A stretch of DNA of 38,849 bases, taken from positions 1 to 38,849 of the IMG/VR virus record IMGVR_UViG_3300025598_000082; one strand, written 5' to 3'. Shown in pieces: positions 9,946-19,780 of this stretch. Under the pieces are notes generated by a model that was given only the letters and a program-made list of their open reading frames with translations, had not been told where the DNA came from and did not search any database. This DNA comes from a virus. Numbering within the stretch: position 1 is the first letter of the stretch; each line of letters starts with the position of its first letter. The translations under genes and the position numbers were made by a program.

Positions 9946-12900
9946 ATGTCTGATCCTGCAAAAACAATAGATCAGAATATTCTGCCTGTTCAGGCGTTAT
10001 TCAATCTAGATAATAGTTTTAATACTTTTATTGGGCAGGGTCAGCCTTTCTATGCCACAGTTAATCCTATTCAATCAGGATTGACAATCACCAATAGCAC
10101 GATTGATAGCTCAATTATTGGTGGAAACTCACCTTCTTTAGCTTACTTTACAACAGCACAATCAAGTAATGCCCCTGTAAGCCCTTTTGATCTTACAAAC
10201 AAGCAATATGTTGACTATTTAGCGGCAGGATTATCTTGGAAAGAGCCTGCAACAGTAGCCACATTAACAAATATTACGCTTTCAGGATTACAAACGATTG
10301 ATGGCGTAAGTTTAGTAGCTGGAAACGTAGTTTTAGTCAAAAATCAGACAAATGCAGCACAAAACGGAATTTATACTGTATCAAGTGGCGCATGGACTTA
10401 CACACCAGGTTCTGATACATGGAATGAATATGTCGGTGCAATCATATTTATTGTTAGCGGAACACAAGCAGGTTCTGCATGGTATTCATTAGCTCAACCA
10501 GGTGGCACATTAGGCACAACACCTATAACTTGGTCTAATTTCTCTGTTTCTAGCGTTTATACTGCCGGAACAGGCCTTACTTTAACAGGCACACAATTTT
10601 CTATTACAAATACTGCTGTAACAGCAGGTTCTTATGGATCAGCTTCATCAGTTCCTACCTATACAGTAAACGCACAGGGTCAATTAACTGCTGCTTCCAA
10701 CACAACAATAGCTATTTCTAATAGCCAAGTATCAGGATTAGGCACTTTAAGCACTCAAAACGCATCAAATGTATCAATTACAGGTGGAAGTATCAATGGC
10801 ACTACGATTGGCGCTTCTAGCCCATCTACAGGCGCTTTTACGACCCTTGGTGGCACAACTATTTCTGCTTCAACTCAATTTACAGGCCCAGGCACAGGTC
10901 TAACAGGAACTGCCACATCATTAAATATTGGTGGAAATGCTGCAACTGCAACAACAGCAGGTTCAGCTACGACTGCCACAACAGCGACTAATTTAGCTGG
11001 TGGCGCATCTAACTATTTACCATATCAATCTGCATCTAATACAACATCATTTTTAACGCCAAGCGCAGGTGTTTTACAATACAGTAGTGGATTATCATGG
11101 ACTACCACACCTACTTTAACAGGCACTAATTTTAGTGGTATTCCTAATGGCGCTTTAAATAACTCTAGTATTACTATAGGTTCTACATCTATATCTTTAG
11201 GTTCTACTGCCTCAACGCTAACTAGCGTAACAATGGCAACACCTACAATTTCTAGTTACGAAACTTATACAGCAACTTCAGCGCCAAGCTATAACGCAGG
11301 TCGTTTATGGTATGACAGCACTCAAAACGCTTTAGCTTATTACAACGATGTCACAAACAATACATTACATATTGGCGAAGAAATACAATTAAAAGTTTAT
11401 AACAATACAGGTTCTACAATTAACGTAGGTCAGCCTGTATATGTTACATCTACAAGTAGTGGATTTACTTATCCTAATGTAGCTTTAGCTATTGCAAACA
11501 CTTTAACAACAGGAAATGTCATAGGTTTAGCAAATCAAGCCATTCCTACAGGAACAGCAGGTTATGTTACAACTATTGGTTTAGTTCAAGGTGTAAATAC
11601 TGGAAGCTATACAGTAGGCGATACTTTATATTTATCACCATATTCTGCAGGTTATTATCAAAATACAATTCCACCAACAGGCTATGCAATTAAATTAGGA
11701 ACTGTAGCTTATGTAAATTCAAGCAATGGCGCAATTTATGTTAATAAAAGTATTTTAACTGTTCAAGCAGGAAACATTGTAGGTCAAGTAGCATTAACTA
11801 ATGGTGGAACAGGTGCTAACTTAACTGCTGTGGCAGGTGGCGCAGTTTATTCATCAGGATCAGCTTTAGGAATTACTGCGGCAGGTTTATCAGGACAAGT
11901 ATTAACATCTAACGGATCATCAGCGCCAACATGGCAAGCAAACGCAGCTTTAGTTACTATTACTGACAATACATCTAGCTCGTCTACATATTATCCGTTA
12001 CTTGCAAATGCTACATCAGGCACAGTTAATTCTGTTAATACTAGCTCTACTAAACTTCAATTTGTCCCACAAACAGGCTTGCTTACAACAACTGCATTAA
12101 GCGCAGGAAGTTTAACTTTAACGACTACGCCATTAGCTGTTGGTTCAGGTGGCACAGGATTATCTAGTTTAACCGCAGGCTATGTTCCTTATGGTAATGG
12201 CACATCAGCGTTTGGTAACTCTGCCAACCTACAATTTACAGGTTCTAACCTACTTATCGGTCAAACCTACGATCAAGGCACAGGCTCACTACAAAACACA
12301 GGTAACGCAACTGTAAATGGTAATCTAGTAGACAAACAACTCTACTTACAGGGTGGGAATAATTTAATATTACAATCACAAACATTTACTACGTCACCTT
12401 GGACTACAAGTAATTCTAGTGTTACATTAAATACTACAACAGCACCTAATAGTACTGCTACAGGAAGTAAAATTGTTGAGTCTGCTACAACATCTTCTCA
12501 TTATATTCAACAAATAATAACTGTTTCAGCATTATCAGCTACTTATTCTGTGTATGCAAAAGCGGCAGAAAGATCATTTATTATTTTAGAATTTGGTTCT
12601 AATGCAGGTGGCTATGCTTGGTTTAATTTATCAACAGGTGCAGTAGGAACAGCAGCAGGTGGTTTAAGTGCATCTAATTGCTCTATAACATCTGTAGGTA
12701 ATGGTTGGTATAAATGCTCTATTAATCAAACTTTAACAGCAGGTTCTTTATATGCAAATATATATTGTGCATCTACAAATGGAGCATCAAGTTATGCAGG
12801 TGACGGAACTTCAGGTGTCTATGTATGGGGTGCTCAACTAGAGTATGGATCTCAAGCATCATCCTACACACCCACAACCACAACAGCAGTAACCACCACT

Positions 12901-14535
12901 AACAACATCTCTGTTCCTAGTGGCTCTGTAGCTATTGGCGGAACAACTAACTCTACATCTAACACTACAGGTGCTTTAACAATAGTAGGTGGTATTGGAT
13001 CATCTAGCAATATTTACGCATCAGGCGGTGCTACATCATCTACATCACCAACAACAGGCGGTATTTGGGCTTATCAACCTTACCCAGCATTTGCAGGCGG
13101 TTTCTTAAATAGCCCTGTTATAGGCTTTACAGCTTCAGCATGGAACAGTTCTTCAGGTTCAGTAGCATCACAAGCATACATGCAATTAAACGCTTTAACA
13201 TTCAACGTTAATCCACCTACTTCTAAATTAAGTTTCTATATAAGCGCTAACGGTGCATCTCCTACAGAGAAGATGTATTTATCTAGTGCTGGTGCTTTAA
13301 CCACAACTGCTGATTCTACATTTAACACAGTTACTGTTGGATTGGGTGGGGGAAGTGTTAGCACAAATACTGCGGTAGGTTATCAATCCTTAAATGCAAC
13401 CACTACAGGTGGTGCTAATACTGCATTAGGATACCAATCATTAAGAACTAATACTACATCAACAAATAATGTTGCTATTGGTTATCAATCATTATTCAAT
13501 AATTCTACATCAAGCAATCTAACTGCTGTAGGAACTTTTGCATTATTAAACAATACCACCAATGTAGCCACACTAGGCACTATTACAGGTGGCTCTGCTT
13601 ATACCAACGGAACATACACAGGCGTAGTCATGACTTTATCGTCAGGTTCTACTGCCACTACATACCCAACTGCTACAATTGTAGTATCAGGTGGTGCAGT
13701 CACATCTGTAACACTTACATCTAATGGCGTAGGCTTTAAAGACACAACCACAGTATTAACAGCACCTGCCGCATCTATCGGTGGAACAGGTAGTGGATTT
13801 AGCGTTCCTGTGGCATCTTTAGCAAGTGGATCAACAAATACTGCTGTGGGTTATCAAGCATTAACAGCTAATACAGTAGCTACAGGAAATACCGCAACAG
13901 GTTCTCAATGTTTAGTTAATACTACTTCAGGTAGATTTAATGTAGGTTACGGAGCTGCTGCAGGTTATGCTAATACTACAGGAGCATATAATGTTTTTGT
14001 AGGAGGACAAAATGCAGGGGGTATAGCAAATGGAAATGCTAATACTTCAGGAAATTATTTAACTGCTGTAGGAGCAGGAGCATTAGCAAGTAATTCAACA
14101 TCCAATGCTTTAACAGGTATTGGATATATGGCTTTATATTCAGCAACAGGTGCTAATAATATTGCTCTTGGTTATCAAGCAGGTTACGCAGGAACTGCAC
14201 TTACCACAGGAACAAATAATATATTTATAGGTTATCAAGCACAAGCATCTACTGCATCAGATACTAATGAAATTGTTATAGGATATAACCAAGTAGGTCT
14301 TGGCTCTAACACAACAGTAATAGGTAATAGCTCTACAACACTTACTAAAGCATTTGGTGTTATTACATCAACAGTTTATACAGTATCTACTTTACCATCA
14401 GCTTCAACATCAGGTGCAGGTGCAAGAGCATTTGTTACAGACGCTTTAGCACCAACATTCGGTGCAACAGTTACAGGCGGTGGTGCAGTAAATATACCTG
14501 TTTATAGTGATGGAACTAACTGGAAGGTCGGATAA
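9946..14535 (+). CDS. Large modular tail fibre / receptor-binding protein (1529 aa)
   Basis: 1529 residues, by far the longest gene. The N-terminal part contains LTNKQYVDYLAAGLSWKEPA and DGVSLVAGNVVLVKNQT, typical of phage fibre attachment regions. GGTG-type fibre repeats follow ([15 protein letters not shown] near nt 12130). About residues 798-975 form a lectin-like domain (LILQSQTFTTSPW ... YVWGAQLEYGSQASSY), probably sugar binding. Residues about 1143-1440 are tandem VGYQSL-type repeats like trimeric adhesin heads (NTAVGYQSL, NTALGYQSL, NVAIGYQSL), interrupted at 13564-13821 by an 86-residue module also found in the gp10-like protein. The C-terminus (YTVSTLPSAS...VYSDGTNWKVG) is a common fibre tip. 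It should determine host adsorption. Confidence 0.85.
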   Translation: MSDPAKTIDQNILPVQALFNLDNSFNTFIGQGQPFYATVNPIQSGLTITNSTIDSSIIGGNSPSLAYFTTAQSSNAPVSPFDLTNKQYVDYLAAGLSWKEPATVATLTNITLSGLQTIDGVSLVAGNVVLVKNQTNAAQNGIYTVSSGAWTYTPGSDTWNEYVGAIIFIVSGTQAGSAWYSLAQPGGTLGTTPITWSNFSVSSVYTAGTGLTLTGTQFSITNTAVTAGSYGSASSVPTYTVNAQGQLTAASNTTIAISNSQVSGLGTLSTQNASNVSITGGSINGTTIGASSPSTGAFTTLGGTTISASTQFTGPGTGLTGTATSLNIGGNAATATTAGSATTATTATNLAGGASNYLPYQSASNTTSFLTPSAGVLQYSSGLSWTTTPTLTGTNFSGIPNGALNNSSITIGSTSISLGSTASTLTSVTMATPTISSYETYTATSAPSYNAGRLWYDSTQNALAYYNDVTNNTLHIGEEIQLKVYNNTGSTINVGQPVYVTSTSSGFTYPNVALAIANTLTTGNVIGLANQAIPTGTAGYVTTIGLVQGVNTGSYTVGDTLYLSPYSAGYYQNTIPPTGYAIKLGTVAYVNSSNGAIYVNKSILTVQAGNIVGQVALTNGGTGANLTAVAGGAVYSSGSALGITAAGLSGQVLTSNGSSAPTWQANAALVTITDNTSSSSTYYPLLANATSGTVNSVNTSSTKLQFVPQTGLLTTTALSAGSLTLTTTPLAVGSGGTGLSSLTAGYVPYGNGTSAFGNSANLQFTGSNLLIGQTYDQGTGSLQNTGNATVNGNLVDKQLYLQGGNNLILQSQTFTTSPWTTSNSSVTLNTTTAPNSTATGSKIVESATTSSHYIQQIITVSALSATYSVYAKAAERSFIILEFGSNAGGYAWFNLSTGAVGTAAGGLSASNCSITSVGNGWYKCSINQTLTAGSLYANIYCASTNGASSYAGDGTSGVYVWGAQLEYGSQASSYTPTTTTAVTTTNNISVPSGSVAIGGTTNSTSNTTGALTIVGGIGSSSNIYASGGATSSTSPTTGGIWAYQPYPAFAGGFLNSPVIGFTASAWNSSSGSVASQAYMQLNALTFNVNPPTSKLSFYISANGASPTEKMYLSSAGALTTTADSTFNTVTVGLGGGSVSTNTAVGYQSLNATTTGGANTALGYQSLRTNTTSTNNVAIGYQSLFNNSTSSNLTAVGTFALLNNTTNVATLGTITGGSAYTNGTYTGVVMTLSSGSTATTYPTATIVVSGGAVTSVTLTSNGVGFKDTTTVLTAPAASIGGTGSGFSVPVASLASGSTNTAVGYQALTANTVATGNTATGSQCLVNTTSGRFNVGYGAAAGYANTTGAYNVFVGGQNAGGIANGNANTSGNYLTAVGAGALASNSTSNALTGIGYMALYSATGANNIALGYQAGYAGTALTTGTNNIFIGYQAQASTASDTNEIVIGYNQVGLGSNTTVIGNSSTTLTKAFGVITSTVYTVSTLPSASTSGAGARAFVTDALAPTFGATVTGGGAVNIPVYSDGTNWKVG

Positions 14536-14864: not shown

Positions 14865-15181
14865 TTGATTTTGAATGGAAAATAATAGAAATATCTAAAG
14901 AAGATGACTTAATTGTTCATGCTAAATACAAAGTTATTGCTCGTGATAACGATATTTTAGTAGAAACAGAGGGAAATCATTGGTTTAGTAATAAAGTATT
15001 AAATATCCCTTTTAAAGATGTAAAAGAAGAAGATATTATTGAATGGATTGAAAATGAATCTATCATTAATGACGAATGTCATATAAAATCTAACTTATCC
15101 AAGCAAGTAGAAGAATTAAAGATAAATCGCAAATCTCAATTACCTTGGAAACCCCAAGTATTTAACGTAGGTGAACTATGA
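14861..15181 (+). CDS. Second DUF7936-like paralogue (106 aa)
   Basis: 106 residues from ATG 14861, which overlaps the previous stop (ATGA); an in-frame ATG at 14849 lies deeper in the previous gene and is less likely. It has the same architecture as its neighbour: [41 protein letters not shown], an amphipathic helix and LPW, but it is much more charged. The pair looks like an old tandem duplication that specialised. Its last bases overlap the gp4-like gene start (ATGA). Function unknown. Confidence 0.65.
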
Positions 15182-16149
15182 CCAAACCAATAGACATTAT
15201 TTCAGGCGCTTTAAAAGACATTGGTGCATTGGCATCAGGGGAAACTCCAGCTCCTGAAGATGCTCAAGACGCATTTTATATGCTTAATGATATGTTAGAT
15301 CAATGGTCTAACGAAGATATGATGGTTTACTATAAATCAGAAATAGTATTTCCTATTACGCCAGGTCAAACTCAATATACTATTGGCCCAACAGGTCAAA
15401 TTGGTGCAGTTATTACAGGCTCTATTAGTGGAAATATCTTAACTGTAACAGGTATTACTTCAGGCGCTATTAATGTAGGTCAATTCTTATCAGGTGCAGG
15501 TATTACTGCCGGCACTACTATTACTCAAATGCTTACAGGCGCAGGGGGAAATGTAAATGAACTTGGCACATATCAACTTAATATTAGTCAAACAGTTTCA
15601 TCTACAACCATTAACCTTTACTATCAACGACCACTTAATATCGATTCGTGTTTTGTTCGTATTAATACTAATTCTAATGGTGTTCCTATCATCAATGGGG
15701 GATTAGATTACCCAGTTGCAGTATTAAACCTTGAAGATTATGAAATGATTGGTTTAAAGACATTAAATGGCCCATGGCCTAAAGCGCTTTACTATCAACC
15801 TGCTGAAACATTAGGAAACATATTTGTATGGCCTAACCCATCTCAAGGTGAAATGCATATATTTACAAATACATTATTCTCTAGGTTTACATCGCAAAAT
15901 GACGTATTAAACCTTCCACAAGGCTATAACATGGCTTTACGCTGGTGTTTAGCTGAAAGACTTATGCCTATGTTTGGTAAGAGTTCACAAGTTCAAATGG
16001 CAATGATTACAGGATTTGCAGCACAAGGAAAAGCAACAATTAAACGCACCAATATGAAACCTGTGCAAAGTGCAAGATTTAACGATGCACTATTATCTAG
16101 CCGACAAAAAGACGCTGGTTGGATATTGACAGGTGGATTCTTTAGATAA
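15178..16149 (+). CDS. Tail accessory factor, P22 gp4-like, with inserted module
   Basis: 323 residues against 166 in P22 gp4. The N-terminus [37 protein letters not shown] is the clear gp4 signature, and the C-terminal half ([23 protein letters not shown]) continues it. Residues about 78-147 (nt 15409-15618) are an inserted beta module, [10 protein letters not shown] ... [16 protein letters not shown], of the same type as in the next two genes. In P22, gp4 binds the portal after packaging and carries gp10. The ATG overlaps the preceding stop. Confidence 0.85.
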
Positions 16150-16165
16150 TTAAAAGGAAAATATA

Positions 16166-17305
16166 ATGGCTTCAACAACATTCGTAGATGGCTCAAGTGT
16201 CATATACTCATCATGGCTAAATGACGTAAACTCAACCGTTTATAATGGAACATTTCAAGCCGCCACAATACAACCTACTAATATCGTAGTTAATGGAACA
16301 GTATCAGGCACAGGATTTACTAATCTTGTTAATTCAGGTTTAACTGCCCCAGGCCCTATTGGTAACGGAACGCCAAACACAGGTGCATTTACTACTCTTA
16401 CAGCTAACAGTCTAACATTAAGCACAACACCTTTAGCGGTAGGATCAGGCGGAACAGGTTTAACATCACCAGGCACTTCAGGTTATGTTTTAACATCTAA
16501 TGGAACAACATGGACACCGTCACTTCTTTTATCTAAAGACACTAACGGTTACCTTTACAGCCCTGTTGCAAATAACAATAGCGGACTATATTCATCTAAC
16601 TTAATTTATAGTGCTAACGGAACTTCAGCAGGTCTTAACATTACGCCTTATCAACCTGTCTTTACTAGCGCAACTTCTACTGCTTCATCTATCAGCACAA
16701 CCACTTTAACAGTAGGCGGAACAGTTACAGGCACTTTTGCAGTTGGTCAAGTTATTACAGGCACAGGTGTTACTTCAGGCACATATATTATTGCTTTAGT
16801 ATCAGGCACAGGTGGCGCAGGAACTTATACTGTAAATAACTCACAAACAGTTGCATCTACTACTATTAACGCATCACACGCTATAAATTTACAAGGTTCT
16901 ACATCTTATCAATTTGAATCTGTTGTATCTTTATTAAAATCAGCAGGAACAACATCTCACACAGTTGCATTAGGATTTGGTGGTTCAGCTACTTTAAATA
17001 ACATTAGTTATATAGCTCTTGGTCAAAATAGTGCATCAAGTTCATCTTTAGCTGTTGCTAACAATAGTGCGTTTGTATCAAGCGCAACTCCAACAGTTTT
17101 AACAAATGCAATTACTTCTGCAACTGAATATGTTTATTTTGTATTAAGAGGAACAATATCAGTCAATACAACAGGCACGATTGCCCCTATTTATGCTTTA
17201 AGTGCTGCTCCTGGTGGCGCTTATACAACTCAAATAGGATCGTATTTTAAAATATCACCTGTAGCAGTAGCCGGTGCAGATGTAAACATTGGGTCTTGGG
17301 TATAA
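16166..17305 (+). CDS. Tail fibre-like virion protein (379 aa)
   Basis: The N-terminus [20 protein letters not shown] is typical of podovirus tail-fibre/minor tail proteins. A GGTG fibre repeat follows ([30 protein letters not shown], residues 86-116), similar to the 1529-residue fibre. Residues about 166-236 are the shared beta module ([11 protein letters not shown] ... [16 protein letters not shown]). The C-terminal 140 residues are a separate beta domain with no recognised family. Its position between gp4-like and gp10-like genes points to a tail or fibre component, perhaps a second receptor-contacting protein. AAAAGGAAAATATA precedes the ATG. Confidence 0.68.
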
Positions 17306-17308
17306 CAC

Positions 17309-19780
17309 ATGGCAGACTTTGGCTTTGTTGGCCCTAGTTACGAAGCTCCTTCCATTTATCAAGATGGACAGGAATGTATTAATTTTCGTGCTGAAGTTGA
17401 CCCATTAAAAGAACCTGGCAGTAGAGGCGTTGTATCTCTTTATCCAACACCTGGCTTAACATCTGCTTTAGTATTTCAAAACAATCAACAAGTTCGTGGA
17501 TTAAGAACATTATCAGGTGGTAATTTTATGTTGGCTGTAGTCGGCCCATATCTTTACTTAATCAATAATACTTTAAATGCTACGATTGTCGGTCAATTAT
17601 CATCATCTGCAGGCCCTGTAAGTATTACAGACAATGGCGTATATGCCTATATTGTTGATGGAAATAACCGATATTCATGGAAAATATCGCAACCACTTTC
17701 AGCCACTTTTATTGGTTCTTTATCAGGAACAACCCTTACTGTTGTATTAATTAAAAGTGGTGTATTGGCAACAGGAATGTCTATATTTGGTTCGGGTCTA
17801 TCTTCTGAAACAGTTATTACAAGCCAAACATCAGGTGTGCCAGGAAGTGTTGGCACTTACACAGTTAATCAAACTCAAACTGAAACAGCCGAAATTATCA
17901 ATGCTTCTACGGTAGGTTGTAATTTTATCGGTTCAATTAACGGAAACATATTAACTGTATCAAATATTGTAGAAGGTAATTTATATCTTGGTCAAACAAT
18001 ACAAGGGCCAGGCGTTACTTTAGGCACAGTTATTACTGCTTTAGGCAGCGAAACTGTTTTAACTGCAGCTATCAATACTGCTGGCACAGGATACGCTGTA
18101 AATGACGTTATAACAGTTTTAGGGGGTATTTATGGCAATTTCCCTTCTACTTACACAGTAAATTCAGTTAATGTTGGCGTAGCCACAGTAGGCACAATTT
18201 CAGGTGGTTCTTCTTATACAAATGGCACTTATTATAATGTTCAAATGACTTATGTAAGTGGCCCAGTTGCGACCACATATCCAAGTGCTACTATTGTGGT
18301 ATCAGGTGGCGCAGTAAGTTCAGTTTCTATTACATCACCAGGTTTAGGTTTTACAAACACAGGAACAGTATTGTCTGCTCCTAGCACATCAATTGGTGGC
18401 ACAGGATCAGGATTTACTGTATCAGTAGCAACTTTAACTAGCACAGGTGCAGTTACATCATTAACGCAAACAAGTCCAGGTCAATATACTTCATTACCTA
18501 ACAATCCAGCGTCTACATCAACAAATGGCACAGGCACAGGATTAACCCTTAATTTAACTTTCGGTTCAGGTTCAGGTGGAACAGGTAATTATGTTTTAAA
18601 TAACTCTCAAACTGTCGCATCTCAAACAATGTTTGGATTGAATTTTAGTATTATTCCTTCATCTGATGGCGCATTTCAAGGTGCTAACACAGTTGATACT
18701 GTAGACAATTATTTTGTATATAACGACCCTAATTCACAACAATGGGCAGCTTCCAATATTTTAAGCCCTATAACTTCAGCTTTAAGTTTTTCATCTAAAG
18801 ACGGATCGCCTGATAACCTAGTTTCTCTTATTGTAGATCATAGAGAAGTTTATTTAATGGGTGAGAAATCATCAGAAGTATGGGTAGACGTAGGAACATT
18901 TCCGTTTCCTTTCCAACGTATTCCAGGCACATCTACTCAACATGGTATAGCGGCTCAATTCTCGTTATCTAGAGTAGGTAACTCATTTGCTTATGTTTCT
19001 CGTAACAATCGTGGTCAAGCTCAAATTATGCAAATGAATGGTTATATCCCACAAAGAATATCAACTCATGCTGTAGAAAATACTTTAGTAGATCAATATG
19101 TAGATGACGCAATAGCATGGACTTATCAACTAGAAGGACATGAAGTTTATGTTGTTTCTTTCCCAACAATAGATTTAACTTGGGCTTATGACGCAACTAC
19201 TAATATGTGGCACAAATGGTTATGGGTAGACAATAACAATGTTTATCATAGACACAGAGGCAATTGCTCAACTGTATTTCAAGGTTTAGTTTATGTGGGT
19301 GATTGGCAAAATGGTATTCTTTACCAATTAGACTCTAATAACTATACTGACAATGGTCAAGAAATTAGACGTTTACGCAGAGCGCCACACCTTGTTACAG
19401 ACTTACAACGTCAATATTTAGAAGAATTCCAAATACAATTTCAACCTGGCGTTGGTTTAAATGGTCTTTCTAAAACCACTTATTCATCTACAAGTGCTGT
19501 TGCAGGATTAGCAATTGCAGGTAGAGCTATTGCAGGAACATCATCATTAGCAACTGTAGGTGCTAACCCACAAGCTATGTTACGTTGGTCTAATGACGGA
19601 GGTTCTACATGGTCAAACGAACATTGGACTTCTATTGGTCAAATAGGTAAATATAAAAATCGTGCTATTTGGCGTAGATTGGGTTGGTCAAGAGATAGAG
19701 TTTTTGAAGTGGTAGTTACCGACCCTGTTAAATCGGTTATAATATCTGCTAATCTAAAAGCATCTGAAGGGGAAAACTAA
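17309..19780 (+). CDS. Packaged-DNA stabilisation protein, P22 gp10-like, with nested insertions
   Basis: 823 residues against 472 in P22 gp10. The N-terminus FVGPSYEAPSIYQDGQECINFRAE and PLKEPGSRGVVSLYPTPGL is the gp10 family signature, and later parts (VDHREVYLMGEKSSEVWVDVG, TYQLEGHEVYVVSFP) continue the beta-propeller-like body. Residues 131-445 are extra: a first beta module (131-199), then a second (203-443) split by another module (252-420), itself split by an 86-residue module (291-376) shared with the tail fibre. In P22, gp10 plugs the portal/gp4 channel and holds DNA in. The insertions probably project outward from a blade. Confidence 0.87.
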   Translation: MADFGFVGPSYEAPSIYQDGQECINFRAEVDPLKEPGSRGVVSLYPTPGLTSALVFQNNQQVRGLRTLSGGNFMLAVVGPYLYLINNTLNATIVGQLSSSAGPVSITDNGVYAYIVDGNNRYSWKISQPLSATFIGSLSGTTLTVVLIKSGVLATGMSIFGSGLSSETVITSQTSGVPGSVGTYTVNQTQTETAEIINASTVGCNFIGSINGNILTVSNIVEGNLYLGQTIQGPGVTLGTVITALGSETVLTAAINTAGTGYAVNDVITVLGGIYGNFPSTYTVNSVNVGVATVGTISGGSSYTNGTYYNVQMTYVSGPVATTYPSATIVVSGGAVSSVSITSPGLGFTNTGTVLSAPSTSIGGTGSGFTVSVATLTSTGAVTSLTQTSPGQYTSLPNNPASTSTNGTGTGLTLNLTFGSGSGGTGNYVLNNSQTVASQTMFGLNFSIIPSSDGAFQGANTVDTVDNYFVYNDPNSQQWAASNILSPITSALSFSSKDGSPDNLVSLIVDHREVYLMGEKSSEVWVDVGTFPFPFQRIPGTSTQHGIAAQFSLSRVGNSFAYVSRNNRGQAQIMQMNGYIPQRISTHAVENTLVDQYVDDAIAWTYQLEGHEVYVVSFPTIDLTWAYDATTNMWHKWLWVDNNNVYHRHRGNCSTVFQGLVYVGDWQNGILYQLDSNNYTDNGQEIRRLRRAPHLVTDLQRQYLEEFQIQFQPGVGLNGLSKTTYSSTSAVAGLAIAGRAIAGTSSLATVGANPQAMLRWSNDGGSTWSNEHWTSIGQIGKYKNRAIWRRLGWSRDRVFEVVVTDPVKSVIISANLKASEGEN

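Follow-up and report, generated by a model that had tools for sequence, protein, structure and literature searches.

The tail plug encoded in a stretch of DNA from a freshwater phage (IMG/VR record IMGVR_UViG_3300025598_000082, analysed over its whole 38,849 bases, here termed the window) carries an insert in which small beta modules are nested within one another in the order A1 - A2[ B[ C ] ], with module A2 split by B and module B split in turn by C. Forms of the plug with zero, two, three and four modules coexist at one site in related phages, which makes the order, number and route of the insertions directly testable. That one domain can be inserted into another is well established in the study of protein evolution, and to our knowledge its living intermediates are rarely all present. 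Insertions of this kind are known in other phages, but a stepwise living series like the one described here is unusual. The arm of the plug is likely to be explained as a whole by stepwise insertion of modules, followed by exchange of the inner layers as a cassette.

The plug protein and its genomic context

The open reading frame at 17309-19780 (plus strand, as for all features below) encodes 823 aa and matches the head closure family Hc3 (phrog_578) in two stretches with an E-value of 2.9e-96 in a sequence profile search, as well as the Pam1 needle head (PDB 7eeq, E 3.6e-17). In fold comparison, P22 gp10 (8eap) aligns to the predicted model with a Z-score of 33.2 and an rmsd of 2.7 over 324 residues (model range 17-690), bridging the insert on both sides, and the model is also matched by the structures from Sf6, Pan3, Pam1 and SU10. 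Judged from profile and model, the product is a P22 gp10-type tail plug or nozzle protein, with a predicted beta propeller. A search of the protein against NCBIfam gave no significant match. Its backbone resembles the P22 gp10, Sf6 gp8 and Pam1 needle-head family in both profile and fold, whereas P22 gp10 itself, at 471 aa, lacks the 315-residue insert. A plug of this type would close the tail channel after DNA packaging. The neighbouring genes encode a P22-type coat protein (Pfam E 1.5e-35), a portal protein (phrog_156), an adaptor (SU10_adaptor, Pfam 1.2e-7, and phrog_637) and ejection proteins, a context that fits the Hc3 assignment.

The N-terminal backbone (17309-17698, residues 1-130), delimited by the alignment of insert-free homologues and by the model, ends after eight predicted propeller strands. 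The C-terminal backbone (18638-19780), defined by the same homologue alignment and by the fold match to P22 gp10, comprises the remainder of the propeller and the tail end of the protein; 21 strands follow the insert up to residue 689, both figures being strand counts in the model and not blades traced in the coordinates. A second variable stretch of the plug lies at 19463-19558 (residues ~719-750, beginning SAVAGLAIAGRAIAG); L070 and L083 lack this stretch, and in L084 its sequence differs.

The source is a single metagenome record, and an assembly artefact might be suspected for that reason. Such an origin is vanishingly improbable, since contigs L003-L006, whose names refer to four metagenomes, encode the identical 823-aa protein (100% identity over all residues), and less similar proteins with the same insert architecture are encoded in L008-L011, L089 and L090. 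The frame is open, in keeping with the claim of a preliminary description that the insertions had left it unbroken.

Architecture of the insert

The insert had been placed at nucleotides 17699-18643, which correctly correspond to residues 131-445, and had been described as absent from P22 gp10, in agreement with the fold alignment that continues across the gap (Z 33.2). The insert-free homologues L083-L086, taken from phage records and 66, 62, 43 and 42% identical to the plug, likewise show a clean gap in place of residues ~128-445.

Module A1 (17699-17905, residues 131-199; A profile 95 bits, pLDDT ~90 or more) is predicted to be a small beta barrel that may resemble domain 2 of EF-Tu. The second module was reported to be of the same type, and indeed the N-terminal half of A2 (17915-18049, residues 203-247) aligns to A1 with an hhalign probability of 98.5%, while its C-terminal half (18572-18637, residues 422-443), which includes a long high-pLDDT strand at 426-444, does so with 91.3%. 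Profile comparison places A1 and the two A2 halves in a single family.

The first half of module B (18050-18178, residues 248-290) is inserted in a loop that joins two strands of A2, and the second half occupies 18437-18571 (residues 377-421). A profile built from 17 other phages with a contiguous B matches the plug in two pieces flanking C, model positions 2-64 at residues 250-311 and positions 34-86 at residues 371-423; B is unbroken in most relatives. The interruption of the second module is therefore confirmed, while its limits are to be moved from the original 252-420 to ~248-421. Module C (18179-18436, residues 291-376), proposed as an 86-residue third module, is matched within B by its own profile as one full-length module with 143 bits. 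The module is absent from this position in relatives with the AAB arrangement, and its limits in the plug coincide with those of a DNA-level second copy at 13564-13821.

Searches of Pfam with modules A, B and C returned no significant match. When the three modules alone were compared with phage records by tblastn, no matches were found, a result that is not evidence of absence, as the low-complexity filter probably masks queries rich in T, G and S.

Predicted structure of the insert

In the full-length AF2 model, based on 45 homologues, A1 and both halves of A2 are predicted with high confidence and C with low confidence. A separate AF2 model of residues 121-457, for which an alignment of 67 rows was used, including 37 C modules taken singly from other loci, reaches a mean pLDDT of 89.8 and a pTM of 0.66. 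The strands predicted in this model are 131-151, 157-160, 168-176 and 182-201 for A1; 204-223, 230-232 and 241-245, then 426-444, for A2; 250-260, 267-270 and 281-289, then 380-389, 393-395, 401-405 and 410-419, for B; and 291-299, 306-312, 314-317, 326-332, 335-343, 354-356 and 369-376 for C. Both pieces of A2 and of B are thus predicted as strands on either side of the interruption. Structure prediction, which had been named as a check, accordingly shows no single continuous domain: each of the four modules has its own set of strands, and those of A2 and of B are divided into two pieces.

The best VIA fold match of module A is the domain 2 barrel of EF-Tu (5izm; Z 7.7, rmsd 2.6, 71 aligned residues), at a level (Z below 8) that may reflect a mere common arrangement of strands, and the Pfam family GTP_EFTU_D2 matches module A non-significantly, with a best E-value of 0.047 among 5 members. 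The resemblance to the EF-Tu barrel is suggestive only. When the insert model was compared with the PDB in Foldseek, Ig-like virion domains included, no structure reached an E-value below 0.001, and Pfam matches of the modules to carbohydrate-binding modules were non-significant (best E 0.21). None of the folds matched points to a function for B or C. In BFVD, collagen-repeat proteins of the giant virus Indivirus (A0A1V0SCQ2 and A0A1V0SDM6) rank with the structures most similar to the insert.

Homologues and the order of insertion

A profile-directed scan yielded 80 loci with a plug protein and was later extended to 132 usable backbones. Homologues with fewer inserts, which had been proposed as a means of reconstructing the order of insertion, exist at every level: four of the 132 carry no insert, 33 carry the A pair (AA), 88 additionally carry B (AAB) and seven have the complete AABC arrangement. 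All four states are found at one site in the plug, so that the region is not the unbroken, identical one in all homologues that would have spoken against nesting.

On a tree of the 132 backbones, built from the backbone only, the A pair changes state once, B once and C six times, the six changes of C being forced by strongly supported branches; an earlier backbone tree had required two changes for B. These counts are independent of the root and do not by themselves separate gain of C from its repeated loss. The outgroup lacks the insert. The occurrence of the states 0, AA, AAB and AABC indicates that the A pair was acquired first, followed by B within A2 and finally by C within B. Both the architecture and this order are held with little doubt, the direction of change being inferred as the simplest order.

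According to this scheme, the pair of A barrels would have entered one fixed loop of the plug once, after the eight predicted propeller strands; B would next have been inserted, also once, into a loop of A2, and C subsequently into a loop of B. At every step the reading frame would have stayed intact and the outer module would still have been able to fold, presumably since the two ends of each module lie close together.

The modules could also be a neutral decoration, gathered without benefit by loops that tolerate insertion. A and C are indeed found in many unrelated virion proteins, and the presence of C varies even between close relatives. By contrast, the A pair was gained once and then kept across 128 diverse homologues, B once and then kept across 95, and the frame is always kept; this pattern suggests selection and makes the neutral explanation somewhat unlikely.

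Nested module or repeat array

The claim of three nested levels inserted at loops is supported by the series of homologue states, but its innermost level also allows another description. On sequence grounds, B and C are each a pair of related GxGY half-units, so that B[C] can be described as an array that grew from two units to four, in which case only A2 would be truly interrupted. Consistent with such growth, the first half of B aligns with the second half of C with an hhalign probability of 84% (E 7e-6 over 37 columns) when 44 C rows are used, although shallow hhalign of the half-units shows no link between B and C. The second halves of B and C align in register, weakly; some second halves of B are placed on the second half of C by MAFFT; and a long-short-long pattern of strands is common to all four half-units in the AF2 model. 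In this plug, moreover, C enters at the unit boundary between the halves of B.

Array growth is less easily reconciled with the behaviour of C elsewhere, where it is autonomous: at 13564-13821 a single copy is flanked by unrelated head repeats, and L092 has three copies. In L119, L142, L147 and L158 a whole C splits another C out of register, giving the sequence half, full, half. Furthermore, B is accommodated in one and the same loop of A2 with or without C; this would need fixed, close termini, and expansion from two to four units would be expected to separate the termini. Growth of a single array is for these reasons unlikely, and true nesting of C within B is clearly favoured.

Probable spread of module C

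On the backbone tree, each C-bearing plug sits singly beside sisters that lack C. Pairs with and without C were compared at the DNA level (L009/L034, L009/L207, L008/L036, L090/L220 and L090/L222). In the three closest sister sets the backbone DNA is 87-96% identical (94-96% for L090 and L220, the pair in which the junction is seen at the DNA level) and the A flanks 80-96%, whereas the second half of B reaches only 71-82%, that is, ~12-20 points below the backbone. In 51 control pairs without C and of like divergence, which overlap in membership, are not independent and support no p-value, the second half of B has a mean identity of 92% and lies at most 11.9 points below the backbone. The halves of B next to C are therefore far more diverged than their flanks, and B[C] appears to have entered as one cassette. 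The C modules of the gp10-like plugs are compatible with a single clade (AU p 0.46), which falls within a well-supported group that also holds C modules of tail fibres.

These observations suggest that C is a mobile module, present also in other virion proteins, which, once lodged within B, may have been passed between related phages as B[C] through recombination in the shared A flanks. There is a good probability that B[C] spreads in this way. Insertion of C into B was probably one event or a few, followed by horizontal exchange of B[C]. The six places of C on the tree could instead reflect six separate insertions into B, as the six changes of state and the presence of two types of junction (SVTVGVATLG..ATLTSTG and ITSGVGTLG..LAPG) might indicate. 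The anomalous divergence of the B halves beside C is what would be expected if B and C had arrived together, and a single clade of gp10 C modules is acceptable (p-AU 0.46); six independent insertions are consequently very unlikely.

Comparison with other phages and possible function

Propeller plugs with added beta domains are known from SU10 gp17 and from T7-type nozzles. In SU10, the additional beta domains of the nozzle protein gp17 are inserted between propeller blades 2 and 3 and form the nozzle during genome delivery (PMC9509320). The insert described here, which eight predicted propeller strands precede, may have a similar position. The SU10 domains are four Ig-like domains in series, whereas the plug described here carries A barrels and the GxGY modules B and C, in a nested arrangement. 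A closer parallel is provided by the crAss001 muzzle gp44, also a propeller plug with a nested insertion: according to the section of the crAss001 report that deals with it, an inserted Ig-like domain itself bears large loop insertions, amounting to two levels of nesting, and the inserted domain is thought to contact the cell (PMC10172136). The folds differ from those found here, and the levels are two as against three; that section describes length variation among crassviruses and contains no stepwise series of states (PMC10172136).

In the 936 lactococcal phages, exchangeable carbohydrate-binding modules are found in neck, tail and Dit proteins, and two of them have been shown to bind the host (PMC6669499). 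These modules resemble A, B and C in being exchangeable on neck and tail proteins, but no sequence or fold link between the two sets was found. Ongoing domain shuffling has been reported for phage proteins, including neck passage proteins (Smug et al. 2023, PMC10684548), in a text from which the word 'nested' is absent. A search of the literature for nested insertion of domains in phage proteins gave no direct precedent.

By analogy with these systems, six copies of the arm may surround the tail tip, where they would touch the host surface, brace the tail, or both. An arm that lies around the tail tip and has one of these roles is probable, while a role at the host surface in particular is put forward only tentatively. 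C would be the outermost and most exchangeable part of the arm. The tolerance of three nested layers also identifies a permissive site in the plug, of use in studies of the tail and its contact with the host.

Related modules in other virion proteins

Although they are without significant Pfam match, the modules are found again in numerous virion proteins of phages, including several encoded in the window. The second copy of C (13564-13821) is part of a tail-fibre-like protein (ORF 9946-14535), in which head-type repeats (NTAVGYQSL...) flank it; it shares ~70% DNA identity with C of the plug (E 1e-25) and is matched by the C profile with 140 bits at residues 1205-1294. The same product also contains a phage head spike fibre domain (NCBIfam NF048003) at residues 805-983, and a similar repeat protein in L092 has three C modules. 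Module A is found at 15406-15615 within the gp4/SU10-type adaptor (ORF 15178-16149; A profile 86 bits, adjoining the SU10_adaptor Pfam match) and at 16676-16876 in a small structural protein (ORF 16166-17305; A profile 76 bits, phrog_21413), so that one phage has A in no fewer than three proteins of the neck or tail. Among related adaptors, 121 have one insert of the length of A, 13 a double insert and one (L085) none.

Further cases of nesting include an A-like module within A1 of L230 and an A-like case in L298, and, as read by eye, C[A] in L127, a GxGY unit interrupted by C in L094 and an A-like module interrupted by A in L164. The number of such cases is a lower bound, given that an automated search for split A modules missed even A2[B], where the C-terminal half of A2 has only 22 residues. 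There is a slightly better than even chance that A, B and C are members of an as yet unnamed group of mobile modules in virion proteins, able to insert into each other's loops in varied orders. If so, repeated nesting would give phages deep, branched arms on their surface, with the inner layers exchanged as cassettes.

The C modules split by a full C (residues 109-280 in L119, and also in L142, L147 and L158) belong to a different family of virion proteins. The L127 protein (ORF at 448, 1194 residues) consists of about ten C-type modules in series, with a module A apparently within one of them. C-type modules also occur in contigs of bacterial genomes (L247-L263), among them Mucilaginibacter, Bradyrhizobium and several MAGs.
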